Below, piece by piece: positions 38,008 through 52,848 of a DNA stretch of 64,000 nt (its first letter is position 1; the number at the start of each line of letters is the position of its first letter). The notes under the pieces are model-generated. The model was not told where the DNA came from. It ran no database searches and saw only the letters and a program-made list of their open reading frames with translations. The translations under genes were made by a program, and so were the position numbers. Source of the DNA: Pedobacter sp. SYSU D00535. Its GTDB lineage: Bacteria > Bacteroidota > Bacteroidia > Sphingobacteriales > Sphingobacteriaceae. The stretch lies in assembly GCF_017355855.1 (NCBI RefSeq), contig NZ_JAFEWD010000013.1:1-64000 (forward strand), written 5' to 3'.

Positions 38008-39018
38008 ATGACACAGAAAAACTTAGCATTGGTAAATGGGGCAAATGGACATCTCGGAAACAACCTTCTTAGATTACTGCTTAGTAAAGGTATTCCGGTA
38101 AGGGCCTCCGTTCGCAATCTGGAAAACAAAGAGGCTTTCTCCCACTTGGATTGTGAAGTGGTTCAGGCCGACATTACAGACAAGCAGTCGTTGATAAAAG
38201 CCTTGCAAGGTGTACACACTTTTTATGCGGTTGGTGCAGCTTTCAAACTTTGGGCTAAAGATCCTAAAAGAGAAATTTATGATGTAAACCTTCTGGGAGC
38301 CAGAAATATTGTAGAAGCAGCTGTAGAAGCAGGCGTAAAGCGCATTGTCTATGTAAGTTCAATTGCCGCATTAAACTACTCCAAAACTCCCGTAAAGGAA
38401 TGCTATGGATACAATCCTGATCGAAGAGATATGTACTACAATTCCAAGAACGATGGTGAGCAACTGGCTTTTAAATTGGCGGAAAAGCACAACATCGATT
38501 TAGTGGCCGTGTTACCTTCTGCCATGATCGGTGAAACTGCAATAGCACCATTGAGCGTATCCTATAACATCATCAACTTAATTTTGAAAAAGGCAATTCC
38601 CGTTGAAACTAATATTGCTTTAAACTGGATTGATGTGAAAGATGTAGCGGAAGGCTGTTACCTGGCTGCGACAAAAGGAAAAAATGGAGAACGCTACATC
38701 TTGGCCAACGAGAAATGTACTTCCATTCAGCAAACGACCAGAATTGCGCAAGAATTATTTCCCGAGCTGAAGTTAAAGTTGCCGCTCGCAGTTCCTAAAT
38801 CTGTTTTACTTGCTGTTGCCTGGTTGATGGAAATGAGAAGTAAGTTCAATGGAAAAGCGCCACTACTAAGCACTAAAGACATAAAGATGTTTTCAGGGCT
38901 TCAGCAAGATTTTGACCTTTCAAAGTCAAGGGAAGAGCTAGGCTTTATTCCAAAGGATCCACATGAAGTTGTGAAAGAGGCTATGCGCTATTTACGGCAG
39001 AATGAAGATCGGTTTTAA
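38008..39018 (+). CDS. NAD(P)-dependent epimerase/dihydroflavonol-reductase-like protein
   Basis: This is a 336-residue extended SDR. The cofactor motif is NGANGHLGNNL (~10-20), the active-site Ser is in VYVSSIAAL (~115-123) and the YxxxK pair is in YYNSKNDGE (~145-149). WIDVKDVAEG and the C-terminal LGFIPKDPHEVVKEA are typical of the dihydroflavonol-4-reductase/cinnamoyl-CoA-reductase-like group, which reduces carbonyls or aldehydes with NADPH. It follows a Crp-like regulator and may be induced by it. The substrate is unknown. The hairpin at 39092-39113 follows the gene. Confidence 0.9.
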   Translation: MTQKNLALVNGANGHLGNNLLRLLLSKGIPVRASVRNLENKEAFSHLDCEVVQADITDKQSLIKALQGVHTFYAVGAAFKLWAKDPKREIYDVNLLGARNIVEAAVEAGVKRIVYVSSIAALNYSKTPVKECYGYNPDRRDMYYNSKNDGEQLAFKLAEKHNIDLVAVLPSAMIGETAIAPLSVSYNIINLILKKAIPVETNIALNWIDVKDVAEGCYLAATKGKNGERYILANEKCTSIQQTTRIAQELFPELKLKLPLAVPKSVLLAVAWLMEMRSKFNGKAPLLSTKDIKMFSGLQQDFDLSKSREELGFIPKDPHEVVKEAMRYLRQNEDRF

Positions 39019-39091
39019 TTGTTCCATTAGTTGTTGTTGTGTTTACAGCGAGGCATGAACGCCCCGGGCTGGATAGGAGCAGGCCGCGGTA

Positions 39092-39113
39092 GGGGAGTCT
39101 CATTCGACTCCCC
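39092..39113 (+). terminator. Hairpin after epimerase gene
   Basis: GGGGAGTC, loop TCATTC, GACTCCCC, followed by CGGGTCTTCTTTC. The stem is perfect but the T-run is poor, so termination is likely but not certain. Confidence 0.5.
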
Positions 39114-39273
39114 CGGGTCTTCTTTCAGCGCTCTAATGCTGGTCTCACCACGATGCTCGACCGTTCATCCGGTGCGAACAATCTCATCTTGTCGCAAATG
39201 ACCCTTCTTTTGCCGTTCCGGTCCCCCATAAGTAGAATTCGACTCCCTTAATTTTACGGTAAATTGCATAGCC

Positions 39274-39795
39274 ATGAATACTACAACAAACAGCCCTAAT
39301 CACCTGGTGAAGAATCTGCTTCTAACACAATTCAACTTACATCAGCGCCTGTATAACAACGTCCTGGACGGTATTTCAGACGAAGAAAGCAACCAGCGAT
39401 TGTATGAAAATACCGCCATGAATCATGTGAAATATCTTGCAGGACATTTATTGAACTCGCAATATGGCCTGGCAACAGGCATCGGTCTCCCTGTCGAGGT
39501 AAAATGGAACGACTTGTTTGCTGTGATGGGACAGTCAGCAGCCCGTGATAATTATGCCTACCCCTCTATCGAAGAAATCCGATCAGAGTGGAACCGCTTA
39601 TACGAGCCCTTACATCAGGCACTTGAAAGGGCGAGCACTGAAGCGCTCAACGAAAAACCCGATGCACCGTTCGATCAGGTGGCGACTTCAAAAGGCGAAC
39701 TTTGGGCTTTTATCAATCATCATATTGCCTATCATATTGGTCAGATTGCCATCCTAAGAAGAGGGTTCGGAAAACCTGCAATGCGCTATGATTAG
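39274..39795 (+). CDS. DinB-family protein
   Basis: This is a 173-residue four-helix DinB-like protein. Candidate metal ligands are His in MNHVKYLAGHL (~50-58) and HHIAYHIGQIAILRR (~149-163), so the three-His site looks intact, unlike in the related protein at 43876. The remaining helices match proteins annotated as DinB or damage-inducible. It is likely a metal-dependent thiol transferase or hydrolase with unknown substrate. Single gene; about 250 bp of non-coding DNA before it contain only the preceding hairpin. Confidence 0.88.
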   Translation: MNTTTNSPNHLVKNLLLTQFNLHQRLYNNVLDGISDEESNQRLYENTAMNHVKYLAGHLLNSQYGLATGIGLPVEVKWNDLFAVMGQSAARDNYAYPSIEEIRSEWNRLYEPLHQALERASTEALNEKPDAPFDQVATSKGELWAFINHHIAYHIGQIAILRRGFGKPAMRYD

Positions 39796-39952
39796 CATAG
39801 CTCGCAGGCAGTAGGGCTCAACGGTAAAGTGCTCTTCCATCCTTGCGCTGGCCGGGCTTAAAGTTATGTCACCCCCGTTTATGTTGCAAGCATGAAGTTT
39901 GAGATCGGATCTACGCTATTAAATTCGCTCCTGCTTTAGTATTTCTATCGGT

Positions 39953-41215
39953 CTATTTAAATAGATAATTTATACCAAACCACTTTTGTCGAAGCCTCAT
40001 CGAGTAGTTTACATTAGAATTGAGTTCCAGAGATGGGGTATATTTGACATAACACTCTATTTTTTTCCACATCTGGATTCCTGCAGCTGCTGAATAGGAA
40101 AAGCCCATCTTGCGCAGGTCCATCTCCTTATTCGTTTTCTTTAATCCGTAAGCATCGACGGATTCGTTTTTTAAATAAACGTTCCGAAATGCAGTTACCC
40201 CTGCTGCAAAGAAAGTTTTGAACTGGGGCTTGTTGTATACATTGTAGAGGATTTGCGGGTTTAAGGAGATATGAAGGTACTCCATATCATGGTTAGCCGT
40301 CCGGTAGCTGAGGGTGTTAAAATTGTAACTGTTCTCCGTCGTAGACGCTCTTTGCATACACGCTGCTCCCGCAAATCGGAACATCATTTTCTGAACTTGT
40401 TTGTTTTCAAACAAATCGTACCCGAAGGCGATGCCGGGAGCATGGGCAAAGGCATGCGTAGCGCCGTCTTTTGCGAGCTGGTGGTCTCCTTTGTAAACTA
40501 AGGATGCAGTAGATGAAAAAATACCTGCAACAAATCTCGAAGTGGAGGTTTTCTCTCGATGCTTTGCATTTTCCCGGCTTCCATTAATTTCCTGGATGAT
40601 GTTGCGGACTTCTGTTTCCCTGTATTCGATAGTCTCTAATTTTGCACGGAGTCGTGGAGAGTCAGCTCCACTGGAAACTGCAAGCAAATGAAGTTGGTTG
40701 GCAAATACTTTCGCTCCACTTATCTCTCTATTCTTCAGATAGGGACGATACTGCAGCTCTTCAGGGTTGGCATGTAATCCTGCTTTTTGAATATAGAACC
40801 GGGTTTTTATGTTGTCTGTATATTTATAAAGCGAAACATTTTTACCTGTCTCGATCAACTGGAGAAAAATAGTCCGTGTCTCAGAAGTCGTATCTTTCTC
40901 TGTCGACAGGTCTGCCAGTCCTATCGCTCCCAAACTGATATTTACAGTATGTTTTTCAAAAGAACCGTTGCCAATGATGCTAAACGACTGAAGCTCATTC
41001 AATCCCAGTTTTTCCGGCTTACTGTTCTCTTCTTTTTTGAAGGTGATACTTTGAGGGGTGGTTCTCCATTCTTTTAAATCTATTAATCCTTTTGAGGTGT
41101 CCCCTTTAGCAGATATGATAAACCCATTTTTATAATTTGCCTGCGAAAAACATATTACAGGAATTGCAATGATAAGTACTGGGAATAGGGTTTTTAAAGC
41201 AGTAAATCGGGTCAT
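39953..41215 (-). CDS. Secreted outer-membrane-like protein
   Basis: This is a 420-residue protein with signal peptide ending ICFSQA (~26). The first ~150 residues form beta-strands (GFIISAKGDTSKGLIDLKEW, LGLNELQSFSIIGNG) similar to a domain common in Bacteroidota proteins that start YKNGFIIT/ANGDT.KG.I. The C-terminal ~190 residues have alternating aromatic strands (EYLHISLNPQILYNVYNK, CYVKYTPSLELNSNVNYSM) and end YLFK, which suggests a small outer-membrane barrel. No named family is certain. It is alone on this strand. Confidence 0.75.
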   Translation of the reverse strand: MTRFTALKTLFPVLIIAIPVICFSQANYKNGFIISAKGDTSKGLIDLKEWRTTPQSITFKKEENSKPEKLGLNELQSFSIIGNGSFEKHTVNISLGAIGLADLSTEKDTTSETRTIFLQLIETGKNVSLYKYTDNIKTRFYIQKAGLHANPEELQYRPYLKNREISGAKVFANQLHLLAVSSGADSPRLRAKLETIEYRETEVRNIIQEINGSRENAKHREKTSTSRFVAGIFSSTASLVYKGDHQLAKDGATHAFAHAPGIAFGYDLFENKQVQKMMFRFAGAACMQRASTTENSYNFNTLSYRTANHDMEYLHISLNPQILYNVYNKPQFKTFFAAGVTAFRNVYLKNESVDAYGLKKTNKEMDLRKMGFSYSAAAGIQMWKKIECYVKYTPSLELNSNVNYSMRLRQKWFGINYLFK

Positions 41216-46678: not shown

Positions 46679-46935
46679 GTTTAATTGGATGCTTATGCAA
46701 ACCTTTTTCTGCAACCAGTAGTGATTGAAGAATGGCTTTGTTCAAAAGTACACACTAAAACGGGATATAAGCTGATTAAACTTCGATAAAATGGGGGGCA
46801 TTAACTGAAATCAAGAAGGAGGATTTGCCCTCCTTAAAAAGATCGAAGAGCTAGTGCTCTTGTTATTCCCTTCTGATTCCCGCATGGACGTGCCTGGAGG
46901 CCTCCTTTGCTTCAACAAGTCTGCTCGACAATAAA

Positions 46936-46970
46936 AAACCGCCTCAAAGTTAACTTCAGAGGCGGTTTTG
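46936..46970 (-). terminator. Terminator of the BLUF-RsbQ signalling operon
   Basis: AAAACCGCCTC (46936-46946) and GAGGCGGTTTT (46960-46970) form a perfect 11-bp stem. On the minus strand six T follow. It stands 68 bp after the CheY-like gene. The rest of 46629-47037 has no gene. Confidence 0.92.
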
Positions 46971-47037
46971 CTAAGACATAAGCTGAATGTCGATGACACT
47001 AAGTGGAAATTGGTAGTCTCGACTATTGTAAATCCTG

Positions 47038-47406
47038 CTATTTCGTTAAAAGGAACTGATTTATTTTTTCCAGTAGAATACTCATCTCAAATGGTTTCGC
47101 GAGAAAGTCATTTGCGCCAGCTTCGAGGGCCGTTTTTTCAAGATCCCTGCTGGCCGAAAGCATAATCACCGGGATATCTTTGGTTGCCGGAGAGCAACGA
47201 AGTAGTTGGCAAATTTCTTTGCCGTCTTCTCCGGATAACCAAACATCTAATAGAATTAAATCTGCTTTTTGTCGGGCCAAATACGGGAAGAGGTCGGATC
47301 CCTTGGTGAAAGTTTTAATTGTGTAGCCCGCAAATTCAAGCATTACTACCAGCGAGTCTACAATTCCCGGGTCGTCATCTACTACAACTATTGTTTTGTT
47401 AGTCAT
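47038..47406 (-). CDS. Single-domain response regulator (CheY-like)
   Basis: This is a 122-residue receiver domain without output. It has VVVDDDPG with the acidic cluster (~8-12), the phosphoacceptor Asp in LILLDVWLSGEDG (~55), VIMLSASRD with the conserved Ser, and the Lys of FLAKPFEM (~105). It is the last gene of the minus-strand operon, 23 bp after the multi-PAS kinase, so that kinase or the RsbP-PAS kinase should phosphorylate it. Lacking DNA-binding, it must pass the signal by protein contact or phosphotransfer to a target encoded elsewhere. A strong terminator follows. Confidence 0.95.
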   Translation of the reverse strand: MTNKTIVVVDDDPGIVDSLVVMLEFAGYTIKTFTKGSDLFPYLARQKADLILLDVWLSGEDGKEICQLLRCSPATKDIPVIMLSASRDLEKTALEAGANDFLAKPFEMSILLEKINQFLLTK

Positions 47407-47429
47407 TCCTGCGTTTCAATTAATCTTAT

Positions 47430-50069
47430 TTATTTAATTTCATTAGGTAGCGAGAAGCAGAAGGTAGACCCATAGCCTTCTTTGCTCGAAACCCATATTT
47501 CCCCACCTTCTCTTTTGATAATTTCAGAAGAAATGTAAAGGCCGAGACCTAAGCCAGGGAAGGTGTGTTCCTTAGTCCCGCTTACGCGATAAAACTGTTC
47601 GAACACTTTGTTTCTTTTGTTTTCAGGGATTCCTATACCAAAGTCCTGAACACAAAGCCTGACGTTAGGGCCATCCAGGCGACTATAGATAATTACTTTG
47701 TCTGCCCCAGGAGAGTATTTTATAGCGTTGGAAATAAGGTTAGTAATTACCTGGCCGATGCGATCCCGATCAGCGAATACGTTCCCGTCAAATTCCAACT
47801 TGGTGACAAGTTGATGCTTTGTTGTTCGTTGTATTTCCTCCACAATCTCTTCTACGAGCGAGCTGAAATCAAAAGAAGCATCATTAAACTGCATCCTTCC
47901 GGTTTGAATTTTAGTAACATCCAGCAGGTCTCCAATAAGTGAAGTAAGCTTATTCAGCTGCAGATCCATCTTATGAACCAGGCCTGCCTTTTTCTCATCT
48001 CCCTCATTTTTCAACATAGCCTCCAGAACCTGCGTATAAGCTTTGATACTGGTTACCGGGGTCTTCAATTCGTGGCTTGCAATTCCAAGGAAGTTATCCT
48101 TCTGTTTTTGCAAAATCTTGAACTCATTAATGTCCGTATTCGTTCCAATCCAGCGCACTATTTGTCCCTCTTCATTGCGTATAGGTACAGCACGACCAAG
48201 GAACCAGCGATACTCTCCCTCTTTAAATCGATCTTTAAATCTGTACTCGATCTCGTAAACCGTTCCGGTGCTTACGCATTTGTACCAGGTATCTACCACG
48301 CGTTTTAGATCTTCCGGGTGCAATATCGGTTCCCAGCTTTCATCCCCGAAACTGTCCTTGCTAAAGCCAGTATAGTCATACCATTGCTCGTTATAATAAT
48401 CCAAATAGCCGTCTGGTCTTGCAGTCCAAACAATCTGTGGCATGGAGTCTGCCAACTCGCTGAGTCTTTGCTGACTCTCTTTTAGCTTCAATTCATTTTC
48501 TTCCACCAACTTACGCGACAATACCTGTTCTGTGACATCAAGACACATGATCAGGATGCTTCTTTTGTTTTCCTTGAAGCTTATTGGTTTATAGGTGAAA
48601 TTGAAATAATAGGTTTTGAGTTCGCCATTGACTATAATCTCGGCTTTACTTTCTGTATTGGTATATTCCTCTCCCGTCTCATAAACTTCTTTCAATAAGG
48701 CCGGGTAGCTTTGTCCCTTTAGCTCCGGCATAAACTCGAGGAGTTCCCGGTCCAGGATACTTCTATCTCTTCCCCAAATTTCGAGCATTGCATCATTAAC
48801 CAGTTCCAGTACCATGTTTTCTCCACTCAGTAATGCCGTAGCAACAGGGGCTTTGTCCACCAGGTTTCTAAACCTTGCTTCGCTTTCCTCTGCCCGGTGT
48901 CGCGAAAGCACTAGATCTGTGACATCGTAGCCCAGAGACATGATAGTCGAAACTTTTTCACCCTCAAAAATGGGATGATAAACGAAGTTGATATACATCG
49001 TCTTCGGACCGTCGCTATGTACTATAGAAATAGGCAATTCCGTTCCGTAGAAAGGTACACCTGTACGATACACATCCTGAAGCACGTCAATAAATCCCTG
49101 CTCAATAAGTTCGGGAAAAACATCAATTACTTTTTGACCGATAACATCTTTCGTTCGTCCCCAAATCTCCAGCGATTTTGAATTGGCTGTTTCTATAATA
49201 AAATCTTCTCCCTGAATAACTGCCATCGCCACCGGAGCTTGTAAAATCAGGTCACGGAGTTTTACCTCGTTACTTTCCGCCCTTCTTCGTATCATCACCT
49301 GCTCTGTAACATTCGTAGCCATATTCAGGATAGCATAAATTTCACCTGCCGAATTTCGAAGTGCCTTATAACTGAAATTGTAGTAGAAACGTTGTAGTTT
49401 TCCATCAACAACCAGATCTACAGGGTCTTCAGTTGCTTTGTAGGTAGTGCCTGTATGATAAACGCGCTGCAGTAAGTCGTGAAAAGGCTGCCCTTCCAGT
49501 TCAGGAAGAGCCTCATGAAGTGTTTTTCCAATAACGTCCTGGTCTTTACCCCAAACCTTAATCATTGCATCATTCGCGACTTCAATCCTCATTTCCGGCC
49601 CCACGTAAACCGCTGTGGCAACATCTGCCTCTAATACAAGACTTTTAAATTTCCTTTCACTTTCTACCAGATTTTTCTTGGCCAACACCTGTTCTGTAAC
49701 CTCTGTCGCCACTACACTTACTCCCGTGATCTCTCCTCCCGTATTCCGTACAGGCGCATATATGAAGTTAAAATATGCATCCTCGAGAATCCCATGCCGG
49801 TATAGTTTCGCCAGTGTTTCATATCCGCGTTGCTCAATGCCCGTATCAAAAACATTCTTAAGCATAGCCGGAAAAGGCTGGTCTGCTATTTCGGGTAATG
49901 CTTCTATAATCGGTAATCCAATAATCTCCTCTTCTTTTCCCCATAGTTCAAGTATTTGGGGATTGGCGATATCAACGAGTAGATTCTCCCCTTCCAAATA
50001 TGCTAGCGCTACAGGAGCCTGCTCAAATAATGAGGCCATGCTGTCGCGACTAAATAACTCTGAATTCAT
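47430..50069 (-). CDS. Multi-PAS sensor histidine kinase
   Basis: This is an 879-residue soluble kinase with no membrane segment. Four similar PAS domains stand in a row (~10-130, 140-260, 270-390, 400-520), each with APVA-x-A-x-GE near the start, a WG(K/R) in the middle and a final Y-x-(F/V)-x-Y strand followed by VTEQV. They look like tandem duplications of one module. A fifth PAS of PAS_3 type follows (~540-655, WTARPDGYLDYYNEQWYDYT). HisKA has SHELKTPVTSIKAY with His666, and the HATPase has NLISNAIKYSPG, DFGIGIP and PGLGLGLYI. It is in the BLUF-RsbQ operon, before a CheY-like gene. The number of sensing domains suggests several inputs or cooperative ligand binding. Confidence 0.94.
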   Translation of the reverse strand: MNSELFSRDSMASLFEQAPVALAYLEGENLLVDIANPQILELWGKEEEIIGLPIIEALPEIADQPFPAMLKNVFDTGIEQRGYETLAKLYRHGILEDAYFNFIYAPVRNTGGEITGVSVVATEVTEQVLAKKNLVESERKFKSLVLEADVATAVYVGPEMRIEVANDAMIKVWGKDQDVIGKTLHEALPELEGQPFHDLLQRVYHTGTTYKATEDPVDLVVDGKLQRFYYNFSYKALRNSAGEIYAILNMATNVTEQVMIRRRAESNEVKLRDLILQAPVAMAVIQGEDFIIETANSKSLEIWGRTKDVIGQKVIDVFPELIEQGFIDVLQDVYRTGVPFYGTELPISIVHSDGPKTMYINFVYHPIFEGEKVSTIMSLGYDVTDLVLSRHRAEESEARFRNLVDKAPVATALLSGENMVLELVNDAMLEIWGRDRSILDRELLEFMPELKGQSYPALLKEVYETGEEYTNTESKAEIIVNGELKTYYFNFTYKPISFKENKRSILIMCLDVTEQVLSRKLVEENELKLKESQQRLSELADSMPQIVWTARPDGYLDYYNEQWYDYTGFSKDSFGDESWEPILHPEDLKRVVDTWYKCVSTGTVYEIEYRFKDRFKEGEYRWFLGRAVPIRNEEGQIVRWIGTNTDINEFKILQKQKDNFLGIASHELKTPVTSIKAYTQVLEAMLKNEGDEKKAGLVHKMDLQLNKLTSLIGDLLDVTKIQTGRMQFNDASFDFSSLVEEIVEEIQRTTKHQLVTKLEFDGNVFADRDRIGQVITNLISNAIKYSPGADKVIIYSRLDGPNVRLCVQDFGIGIPENKRNKVFEQFYRVSGTKEHTFPGLGLGLYISSEIIKREGGEIWVSSKEGYGSTFCFSLPNEIK

Positions 50070-50147
50070 ACTAGATTCAACTTTTTAAGTACTTTCTGCA
50101 AAGATACTGGTAATATGGACGCTTTTTTAAACCTCCAATTTTATATC

Positions 50148-51647
50148 TTATGATAATGGCTCACTATTGTTCCAGTTGGAGACAGGAAGTGAGAAATAAA
50201 AGCAACTCCCCTCATTCAATGTACTATTAACAAACACCCTGCTTTGATGCTGCTTCAGAATACTTTGAATGATGTACAGCCCAAGGCCCAGCCCCGATGC
50301 TTTGTTGTTATTGGTAGTATCGCTTACCCGATAATATTTTTCAAATATAAGCTCGAGTTTGTCTGCCGGTATTCCAACTCCAAAATCGCTGATTTCAATT
50401 TTTACTAATTTCCCGTTTTCGCTAAGCTTCAGGCCGACTTCCACCTTGTCTGCCTGTGGCGAGTATTTGATAGCGTTATTTATCAGGTTAATAATAACCT
50501 GCATTATTTTTTGGCGATCGGCATATACCAGATGGACGTCGTCAGAATTAAAGGTCCGAATAATGGTATGGCTGTTCTGAGTGGCAGATATAAGGTCGAT
50601 GCATTCTTCAAGCACTTTAGTAATTGAAAATGAGCTGAGATTGAGGGAAAGCTGACCAGAGTCTATATTTGAAACGTCGAAGAGGCTGGAAACAAGAAAC
50701 TCCAGAGAATTAAGAGAGGCATCGGCTCTCAATAAAAACTTTCTGCTACTTTCAGGCAGCGCCATTCGCTGGAGGATTTGATGGTATGCCTTTAAGCTGG
50801 TGATGGGAGTTTTCAGTTCATGACTGGCAATATTAATAAATTCGTCTCTTCTTTGTATTGATTTAACCTGACTATCAATATTGGTACATGAACCGATCCA
50901 TTTAACTGGTCGCCCGTCTTCAAAATACGGTTGGGCCTTGATAAGATACCATTCAAAGGCTTGGGCATGATTTTCCAGTCGGATTTCAACTTTAAATTCT
51001 TCCAAACTTTTCATCCCGGTGTTCCAGCACCGCAACAGCTTAAAGCGGTCCTTGATGCATACTTTAAGCAGCACCTCCTTTGCCAGGAATTCGGAGATAT
51101 TAAAGAACTGAAAAAAGCGCTTGTTCACATAGTCGACCTTGCCGGAAACGTCGGCAGTCCAGATAATATCAGGATTAAAGTCGGATAAAAATTCGAACCG
51201 TTTTCGTTCAGCTTCTGCTTTCCTTTTAGAAATTAACAGTTCCCGTTCGTATAGCTTACGTTCGCTAACGTCGTAGAGCGTAGCGTTGATTGCTTGGGCA
51301 ACTCCGTCGACTGCTTTGCTGGGTACCGCGCTAAGAAAAACGGGAAAAGAGGCGTTATTTTTTTTGATAATATCGTAGCTCAGCTGGTTTACTGCTCCAT
51401 TAGCGTTAATTAATGGACGAAAAAACATTTCGTAATGTAGTGCCGCCCCTTTTGATATGAGGTCAGTAAATTTTTTTTTATATAAAACCTCCTCCAGCTC
51501 ATACCCGAGCCATTCGAGAAGGGTCCTGTTTATTTTGATAATTGTTCCGTCAGGAAGGAAAGATAAATATCCACAAGGGGCATTTTGATACAGTTCTTCT
51601 GTGTCAATTAAGGTATCTAATAACTTTTTGTCGACACTGAAACTCAA
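50148..51647 (-). CDS. Histidine kinase with RsbP-type PAS domain
   Basis: This is a 499-residue soluble kinase. The first PAS (~18-130) starts YQNAPCGYLSFLPDGTI and continues LLEWLGYELEEVL, LHYEMFFRPLINANGAV and YDVSERKLYERELL. This is the PAS type I know from phosphatases encoded beside RsbQ-like hydrolases (RsbP in Bacillus and SpoIIE-type relatives). A second PAS of PAS_3 type (~155-265) has WTADVSGKVDYVNKRF. HisKA is SHELKTPITSLKAYH with His276, then the HATPase (NLINNAIKYSPQ, DFGVGIP, GLGLGLYI). The gene starts five bases after the RsbQ-like gene ends. Thus a kinase core replaces the usual phosphatase. Confidence 0.94.
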   Translation of the reverse strand: MSFSVDKKLLDTLIDTEELYQNAPCGYLSFLPDGTIIKINRTLLEWLGYELEEVLYKKKFTDLISKGAALHYEMFFRPLINANGAVNQLSYDIIKKNNASFPVFLSAVPSKAVDGVAQAINATLYDVSERKLYERELLISKRKAEAERKRFEFLSDFNPDIIWTADVSGKVDYVNKRFFQFFNISEFLAKEVLLKVCIKDRFKLLRCWNTGMKSLEEFKVEIRLENHAQAFEWYLIKAQPYFEDGRPVKWIGSCTNIDSQVKSIQRRDEFINIASHELKTPITSLKAYHQILQRMALPESSRKFLLRADASLNSLEFLVSSLFDVSNIDSGQLSLNLSSFSITKVLEECIDLISATQNSHTIIRTFNSDDVHLVYADRQKIMQVIINLINNAIKYSPQADKVEVGLKLSENGKLVKIEISDFGVGIPADKLELIFEKYYRVSDTTNNNKASGLGLGLYIIQSILKQHQSRVFVNSTLNEGSCFYFSLPVSNWNNSEPLS

Positions 51648-51652
51648 TAGCC

Positions 51653-52447
51653 CTAATTTAAATACTTCTTAATCGCCTTAACTGTTTCTTGTGGTTCGCT
51701 GATGTGAGGACAGTGTCCGCTCGCTTCCATTATATACAATGTATTATCAGGAGTGTTTGCAGCGATAAAATCTCCGATATTAAGGGGAGCAATAATATCA
51801 TCCGTACATTGCAGGGTAAGGCTGGGAACCTGAAGTTTTGGCAAATCTGCTCTGTTGTCAGAGAAAAAAGTAACTCTTGCAAATTCCCGCGCTATATCAG
51901 GATCTGTGGAACAAAAGCTACTGGTCAAAAATGCTCCAAGTTCCGGCCGGTCGGGGTTTCCCATAATAGCCGGTGCTAACTGGCTCGACCAGCCCAAATA
52001 GTTGGAATCCATAAATTCAAAAAGTGCTTCCAAATCGGCTCTTTCAAATCCGCCGTGATACCCCTCATCATTCAGGTAACGCGGAGAGGGACCTACAAAA
52101 ATCAGCTTTTCGAAAAAAGACGGGTGCTTAAGGGCAGCAAGCACGCCCACCATGCTGCTTACGGAATGACCAACAAAAATAGTTTCCTCCAGTTTAAGCT
52201 CATCACAAACCTCCAGAATATCCTGAGCATACCCTTCTAACGTTCCATAGCGGGAAGAACTGTAGGCACTTAAATCGGATTTGCCGGCTCCTACATAGTC
52301 AAATAGGACTAATTTATAGTCGTTCGCAAAAGCATCAGTAACAAATTTCCAGGAGTTTTGGTCGCAGCCGAATCCGTGGGCGAAAAGCATTACTTTCTCT
52401 CCCTTGCCTGTAATGGTGACATTATTACGTTTGATTATCGTATTCAC
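51653..52447 (-). CDS. RsbQ-like alpha/beta hydrolase
   Basis: This is a 264-residue cytoplasmic alpha/beta hydrolase. It opens with IIKRNNVTITGKGEKVMLFAHGFGCDQ, typical of RsbQ; the triad is Ser95 in GHSVSS, Asp216 or 217 in QCTDDIIAP, and His245 in SGHCPHISEP. LFDYVGAGKSD and SRYGTLEGYAQDI also match RsbQ/KAI2/D14 relatives. In Bacillus subtilis RsbQ makes or delivers a small hydrophobic signal to the PAS domain of the phosphatase RsbP. Here it is encoded between a BLUF photoreceptor (8-bp gap) and a kinase with an RsbP-type PAS (5-bp gap), so its likely partner is that kinase. Confidence 0.93.
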   Translation of the reverse strand: MNTIIKRNNVTITGKGEKVMLFAHGFGCDQNSWKFVTDAFANDYKLVLFDYVGAGKSDLSAYSSSRYGTLEGYAQDILEVCDELKLEETIFVGHSVSSMVGVLAALKHPSFFEKLIFVGPSPRYLNDEGYHGGFERADLEALFEFMDSNYLGWSSQLAPAIMGNPDRPELGAFLTSSFCSTDPDIAREFARVTFFSDNRADLPKLQVPSLTLQCTDDIIAPLNIGDFIAANTPDNTLYIMEASGHCPHISEPQETVKAIKKYLN

Positions 52448-52455
52448 AAGATTAT

Positions 52456-52848
52456 TTATTTAGGATCATTATTAGAGTCTAAAATAGATAAAAGGAACAA
52501 GCTTTTTTCAGCAAACATGTTAATGGTTTCTTCCTGCATTTCCTGACTGATGTCTTTCCGTTCGAACCCCATACTCCAGTCGGGAAAGAAACGCTGGTCG
52601 ATTTTTCCTTCTTTTAAAGTTTGCACATTGTAATGACGATCGTCTCGAAGAAGATTACTGTATAATTGCTGAATTTTTGTTTCCTCTCCTTCAATCAGTT
52701 GGACGTATAAATCTTTGAAGCAGATGAGCATTCCTGTGACTTCATGCTCAGAGTTTGCAGACCTTGCGGTGTTCAGTAGATCATCGAGCTCCTGGTCCGA
52801 CAACATCCTGCTGGGAAAGCTGGAATATATTAAATAGTATAAGGCCAT
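52456..52848 (-). CDS. BLUF-domain blue-light photoreceptor
   Basis: This is a 130-residue stand-alone BLUF protein that binds FAD non-covalently. All key residues are visible: Tyr8 in LIYSS, Asn32 in ARSANSEHEVTGML, Gln50 in YVQLIEGE and the Trp91-x-Met93 pair in FPDWSMGF. Tyr, Gln and Trp/Met correspond to the photoactive residues of AppA and PixD. A C-terminal helix-rich tail of ~35 residues follows (DISQEMQEETINMFAEK), which can mediate oligomerisation or partner binding as in PixD. It is the first gene of the five-gene operon and has no output domain, so it must signal through a partner, probably one of the two kinases. Confidence 0.95.
   Translation of the reverse strand: MALYYLIYSSFPSRMLSDQELDDLLNTARSANSEHEVTGMLICFKDLYVQLIEGEETKIQQLYSNLLRDDRHYNVQTLKEGKIDQRFFPDWSMGFERKDISQEMQEETINMFAEKSLFLLSILDSNNDPK

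Follow-up and report, generated by a model that had tools for sequence, protein, structure and literature searches.

A BLUF photoreceptor gene beside an RsbQ-PAS histidine kinase pair in the soil bacterial genus Desertivirga

In Bacillus subtilis, a flavin light sensor, the LOV protein YtvA, and an RsbQ-gated branch, RsbQP, serve one stress network, in which the two inputs are not encoded in a single operon and have separate entry points into sigma-B partner switching (references in PMC3183031, PMC4844311). The RsbQ branch belongs to a wider module, described from 45 pairs of RsbQ with an RsbP-type PAS domain, in which RsbQ is encoded immediately upstream of a protein that carries this PAS domain most N-terminally, joined to one of three outputs: PPM phosphatase, histidine kinase or diguanylate cyclase (Nadezhdin, Brody and Price 2011, PMC3183031). 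The RsbQ-PAS contact in B. subtilis is experimental; Bacteroidetes and BLUF both go unmentioned in the paper's main text (PMC3183031). RsbQ is also, by structure-database comparison, a bacterial relative of the receptors with which plants perceive karrikins and strigolactones.

Short BLUF proteins that act in trans, such as PixD (Slr1694), BlsA and PapB, consist of one BLUF domain that ends in a short helical stretch and have no covalent effector; PixE is the known partner of PixD. Fur is a known partner of BlsA (PMC5955987) and an EAL protein that of a short BLUF (cited in PMC4844311); these known partners are not PAS histidine kinases. In photoreceptor histidine kinases, the LOV, BLUF or phytochrome domain lies inside the kinase (PMC6798134). 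The locus described here resembles the latter in that light may control a soluble histidine kinase, but differs in having its photosensor on a protein of its own and a putative additional input, from RsbQ, into the kinase.

Layout of the locus and its gene products

The window, that is, the whole stretch of 64,000 nucleotides of Pedobacter sp. SYSU D00535 that was analysed (contig NZ_JAFEWD010000013.1), comes from a genome that belongs with Desertivirga (Sphingobacteriaceae), alongside D. xinjiangensis and D. arenae. Five genes, all on the minus strand, follow one another in the order BLUF-RsbQ-HK499-HK5PAS-receiver, with gaps of 8, 5, 78 and 23 bp:

52456-52848, minus strand: short BLUF protein, 130 aa (Pfam BLUF, 1e-27)
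51653-52447, minus strand: RsbQ-type alpha/beta hydrolase, 264 aa, GTG start (Pfam alpha/beta hydrolase, 4.7e-18)
50148-51647, minus strand: HK499, soluble histidine kinase, 499 aa, with TTG as the first start (Pfam PAS_9, HisKA and HATPase_c)
50099-50131, minus strand: candidate Bacteroidota-type promoter, TTTA-N21-TATCTTTG, one mismatch, inside the 78-bp gap between HK499 and HK5PAS
47430-50069, minus strand: HK5PAS, soluble histidine kinase, 879 aa, with five PAS domains, HisKA and HATPase_c
47038-47406, minus strand: stand-alone CheY-like receiver, 122 aa (Pfam Response_reg, 3.3e-24)
46935-46969, minus strand: intrinsic terminator, 11-bp perfect stem and T run

These ORF coordinates agree with the initial annotation, which described five genes on one strand with the same gaps; the gene identities it proposed were borne out by Pfam and PDB comparisons, and its perfect terminator was found again as an 11-bp stem (46935-46945/46959-46969) with a T run on the minus strand and an energy of -19.3 kcal/mol. 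The terminator is missing from the list produced by a simple hairpin scan, presumably since its loop exceeds 8 nt. The candidate promoter, matched to a consensus for which each strand of the window has a background of about 0.18 hits per kb, possibly provides a separate start for the last two genes; no such promoter was found in the corresponding D. arenae gap. The window region 5' of BLUF has no Bacteroidota-type promoter match, the BLUF upstream regions of the window and D. arenae gave no meaningful alignment, and an Rfam search found no RNA element.

In a motif and alignment check the BLUF protein was found to keep the flavin-site residues that mark the family (Y8, N32, Q50 and W91/M93), and its AlphaFold model (mean pLDDT 81) has a BLUF fold, for which the nearest solved structure is Slr1694/PixD. 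The protein shares with the short trans-acting BLUFs the single domain, the short helical C-terminus, the lack of a covalent effector and the signature residues, but differs from them in that its model has one predicted C-terminal helix (residues 102-124) and in its neighbours, which are RsbQ and soluble PAS kinases. RsbQ matches the solved B. subtilis RsbQ (1wom) over its full length (E=1.5e-96), with the GHSV, TDD and GHCPH motifs intact at the Ser/Asp/His triad positions. HK499, which lies directly downstream of RsbQ as the rule of the published module has it, comprises an N-terminal RsbP-type PAS domain (residues 25-129), a second PAS domain, HisKA (HELKTP at 276) and HATPase_c, while HK5PAS comprises four PAS_4 stretches and a fifth PAS domain, followed by HisKA (HELKTP at 666) and HATPase_c by Pfam. 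The kinase boxes (HELKTP, NAIKYSP, DFGxGI and GLGLGL) are intact in both, and the receiver contains DDD (10-12), LLDVW, MLSAS and AKPF, the motifs of the acceptor Asp, Ser and Lys positions.

To place the first PAS domain of HK499, we aligned it with 54 other RsbQ-linked PAS domains (n=55). The residues that define the RsbP-PAS class are C10, L13, L48, F55 (aromatic), Y59, E72 and P86, with no DIT motif at the PAS end (PMC3183031). When numbered on a B. subtilis RsbP reference sequence, nine of whose ten checked residues agreed with PMC3183031 and whose C56 was set from that paper, HK499 keeps C10, L13 and P86, has a histidine at F55, within the aromatic class, and replaces L48 with I, Y59 with F and E72 with Q. 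The glutamine occurs only in the three Desertivirga sequences among the 55 domains, and E72A is null in B. subtilis (PMC3183031). The domain also ends in DVS, which is DIT-like and departs from the class description; since a DIT-like end is found in 15 of the 55 domains, the published no-DIT rule does not hold throughout the wider family. A phmmer search of this PAS domain against the PDB returned no match.

A PAS histidine kinase behind RsbQ is thus an already published arrangement, histidine kinases being one of the three published outputs. It is also the common state in our survey, where a gene for an RsbP-type PAS protein lies directly downstream of RsbQ in 52 of 79 distinct RsbQ loci, and HK499 groups with other RsbQ-linked kinases (tree support 0.997). 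What sets this locus apart from the described module, besides the glutamine and the DIT-like end, is the BLUF gene before RsbQ, the kinase-receiver pair after HK499 and the Bacteroidota host.

Conservation in Desertivirga and the reach of the BLUF-RsbQ pairing

The five genes occur in the same order in D. arenae, where protein identities to the window are 64% for BLUF, 81% for RsbQ, 72% for HK499, 82% for HK5PAS and 83% for the receiver, so that BLUF has diverged most (64% vs 72-83%). The gap between BLUF and RsbQ, 8 bp in the window, is about 11 bp there, and the two operons have no flanking genes in common. Because the order and 64-83% protein identity persist between unrelated flanks, the operon is more than a chance assembly. 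Some 16 kb from the intact D. arenae operon lies a fragment of the C-terminal half of RsbQ that is 75% identical (L068 7323-7700; G031:C9:69322-69720), which suggests a partial duplication.

In D. xinjiangensis, RsbQ (83%) and HK499 (71%) are found without an intact BLUF, HK5PAS or orthologous receiver adjoining them. About 17 bp upstream of RsbQ, however, there is a BLUF remnant (L005 7822-7984), made up, in this order, of BLUF codons 1-10, codons 83-99 including a stop and, in a different frame, codons 106-124. In tblastn against a 403-bp target it was recovered with E values of 6e-6 for the window BLUF and 2e-8 for that of D. arenae, and its DNA shows 71% identity over 126 bp; a search of the D. 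xinjiangensis genome found no intact BLUF elsewhere. Because this species keeps the remnant, BLUF probably came to lie beside RsbQ before the three species separated, and from the sequences compared this position is probably ancestral in Desertivirga, one of the three species having lost BLUF. A receiver-like gene (L005 7275-7631), 29% identical to the window receiver, lies upstream of the remnant and of RsbQ-HK499. The HK5PAS orthologue and its receiver are present as a pair on a different contig, and the pairing of these two genes is therefore kept in the window, D. arenae and D. xinjiangensis alike. More distant kinases of the HK5PAS clade also have relatives of the receiver after them, and related kinase-receiver pairs recur elsewhere in these genomes.

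In a family sample, in which RsbQ was present in 78 of 400 genomes (E <= 1e-90) and BLUF in 63 of 201 and to which further genomes were added, and in a phylum sample, together large rather than exhaustive, BLUF stood next to RsbQ only in the window genome and D. arenae; 77 of the 79 RsbQ loci have no adjoining BLUF. The nearest other case seen, in genome G466, has the two genes about 7 kb apart on opposite strands. Literature searches for RsbQ together with BLUF, and for BLUF with Mucilaginibacter, returned nothing relevant. In the genomes and literature searched, the BLUF-RsbQ-kinase pairing is new and restricted to one genus, a small group of soil bacteria. These results divide the claims of the initial annotation. 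It was right to call BLUF in this operon unusual, since the gene adjoins RsbQ in no genome searched outside Desertivirga, and the search for BLUF near RsbQ across Bacteroidota that it proposed found the pairing again in D. arenae, though not outside the genus. The gene order is accordingly not unique to this genome, given the same order in D. arenae and the remnant in D. xinjiangensis. Its identification of an RsbQ / RsbP-type PAS / kinase coupling was correct, but the coupling was described in 2011 (PMC3183031), and its remark that it knew of no such system in print holds for the BLUF pairing and not for the RsbQ-PAS kinase core.

BLUF proteins linked to soluble histidine kinases

In the BLUF tree, the window protein groups (support 0.976) with the second BLUF of D. 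arenae and with BLUFs from other genera. A profile built from this clade recovered additional members, whose scores were clearly separated from those of other BLUFs; across the class, a search for the subclade returned only distant BLUFs of at most 40% identity. In three genomes of one genus (G110, G733 and G676), a soluble kinase with two to three PAS domains is encoded 4-6 bp before the BLUF gene on the same strand, and in a fourth genome (G634) a BLUF with two stops follows the remnants of a kinase, indicating a decayed kinase-BLUF pair. In another genus (G011), a divergent multi-PAS-GAF kinase lies 109 bp from BLUF, while in G658 and G691, and at the BLUF paralogue of D. arenae, no kinase adjoins BLUF.

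A co-directional kinase within 150 bp is present at 3 of the 7 intact subclade loci outside the window operon, as against 2 of 114 other BLUFs (p=0.001), a comparison to be read with the facts that the three pairs come from one genus and are not independent and that the subclade was defined after the first pair had been seen. That the window BLUF merely follows a general BLUF-kinase habit of the family was considered and rejected, only 2 of the 114 other BLUFs having such a neighbour. In the kinase tree, the partners from the three pairs are most closely related to one another (0.965), and neither HK499 nor HK5PAS is orthologous to them. A kinase encoded on another contig of the window genome (C17:163435) is 50% identical over 599 residues to the BLUF-linked kinase of G733, which lies 6 bp from its BLUF.

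Among other BLUF genes, the window genome has three more (C3:103181, C11:821982 and C12:607237), with no close relative of the operon kinases beside any of them, and two BLUF genes in other genomes (L111 and L117; G145 and G194) are preceded, at a distance of 83-132 bp, by a co-directional gene with a receiver domain.

Possible signalling routes and their alternatives

Taken together, gene order and pairing indicate that the operon is composed of two modules, A (BLUF-RsbQ-HK499) and B (HK5PAS-receiver). In the reading we prefer, to which we give an even chance of being right, a BLUF protein acting in trans has been recruited to the RsbQ-gated HK499, and the HK5PAS-receiver pair is presumably co-transcribed with module A in two of the three Desertivirga species. 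RsbQ would dock on the RsbP-type PAS domain of HK499, or feed a product to it, and by homology to B. subtilis would set the activity of the kinase as RsbQ does for RsbP. From the genome context we infer that the short BLUF would supply a blue-light input in trans, most likely via direct contact with the HK499 dimer; every physiological output of the locus is likewise putative. Module B would be a two-component pair in its own right, with a multi-PAS kinase and possibly a promoter of its own. Because the receiver goes with HK5PAS in three species and related pairs recur, this protein, which has no output domain, is most simply taken first of all as the partner of HK5PAS; the receiver of HK499 is probably encoded elsewhere or shared. 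Several findings count against the preferred reading: the BLUF-linked kinases elsewhere are not orthologous to either operon kinase, the C17:163435 kinase could be what BLUF really acts on, BLUF is less conserved than the other four proteins and decayed in one of three species, and the HK499 PAS domain departs from its class at E72 (Q) and in its DVS end.

The initial annotation had instead proposed that BLUF and both kinases feed one phosphorelay ending in the stand-alone receiver. Five closely spaced genes before one terminator, in an order repeated in D. arenae, speak for such a relay, but with HK5PAS-receiver unlinked from RsbQ-HK499 in D. xinjiangensis, relatives of the receiver accompanying HK5PAS-type kinases elsewhere and a candidate promoter preceding HK5PAS, we consider it quite unlikely. 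It is also unlikely that BLUF acts on RsbQ, with light gating the hydrolase and thereby making the RsbQ-derived signal to HK499 light-dependent: the two are immediate neighbours in both intact operons, and in D. xinjiangensis the remnant sits directly upstream of RsbQ, yet BLUFs of the same subclade occur near kinases in other genera with no RsbQ nearby, and nearly all RsbQ loci do without an adjoining BLUF. An equally low probability attaches to control of a different kinase in trans, such as G000 C17:163435, BLUF being merely co-transcribed with RsbQ. The resemblance of that kinase to the BLUF-linked one of G733, and the existence of Desertivirga relatives of it that have no BLUF beside them, would fit such control, whereas the tight clade of BLUF-adjacent kinases consists of three proteins of one other genus and leaves the C17 protein outside, and three Desertivirga species have, or once had, BLUF at RsbQ-HK499. 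Finally, BLUF might be a chance passenger that is being lost and adds nothing to the RsbQ-HK499 unit; its divergence, its decay in D. xinjiangensis and the decayed kinase-BLUF pair in G634 would all be expected of a relic, but the window and D. arenae proteins keep their flavin-site residues and full length at 64% identity, and the gene order has survived although the flanks changed, which makes this very unlikely.

Extending the preferred reading, in which BLUF serves HK499, a broader scheme is possible, which we put forward tentatively: a short-BLUF subfamily of Sphingobacteriaceae would be dedicated to the control of soluble multi-PAS histidine kinases in trans, and in Desertivirga a kinase gated by RsbQ would have captured it, with blue light and the RsbQ ligand as two inputs that meet in a single kinase. 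If the kinase-BLUF pairs are functional, histidine kinases would join the known targets of short BLUF proteins, and the pairs could serve as two-part optogenetic switches. For the search for the natural ligand of RsbQ, a kinase that is gated by RsbQ and genetically coupled to a light sensor would offer a second controllable input and a phosphorylation read-out.

Two further observations concern the partners of RsbQ. The window genome encodes a second RsbQ paralogue (43%), whose gene overlaps that of a 506-aa PAS protein (L070 2369-3886 and 3873-4691; contig C1, ~38368-40690). The latter has an H-box-like end, MNSHLVRKPVANILGI, and no HATPase match, and a similar end is found in a MASE11-PAS protein (L137 774-2390); proteins of this type are possibly a DHp-only partner family of RsbQ. 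In two Mucilaginibacter genomes (L008 7570-7938 and L016 7566-7943), a stand-alone receiver is encoded about 40 bp upstream of an RsbQ-histidine kinase pair, which makes it a candidate for the direct output of the family's RsbQ-linked kinases.
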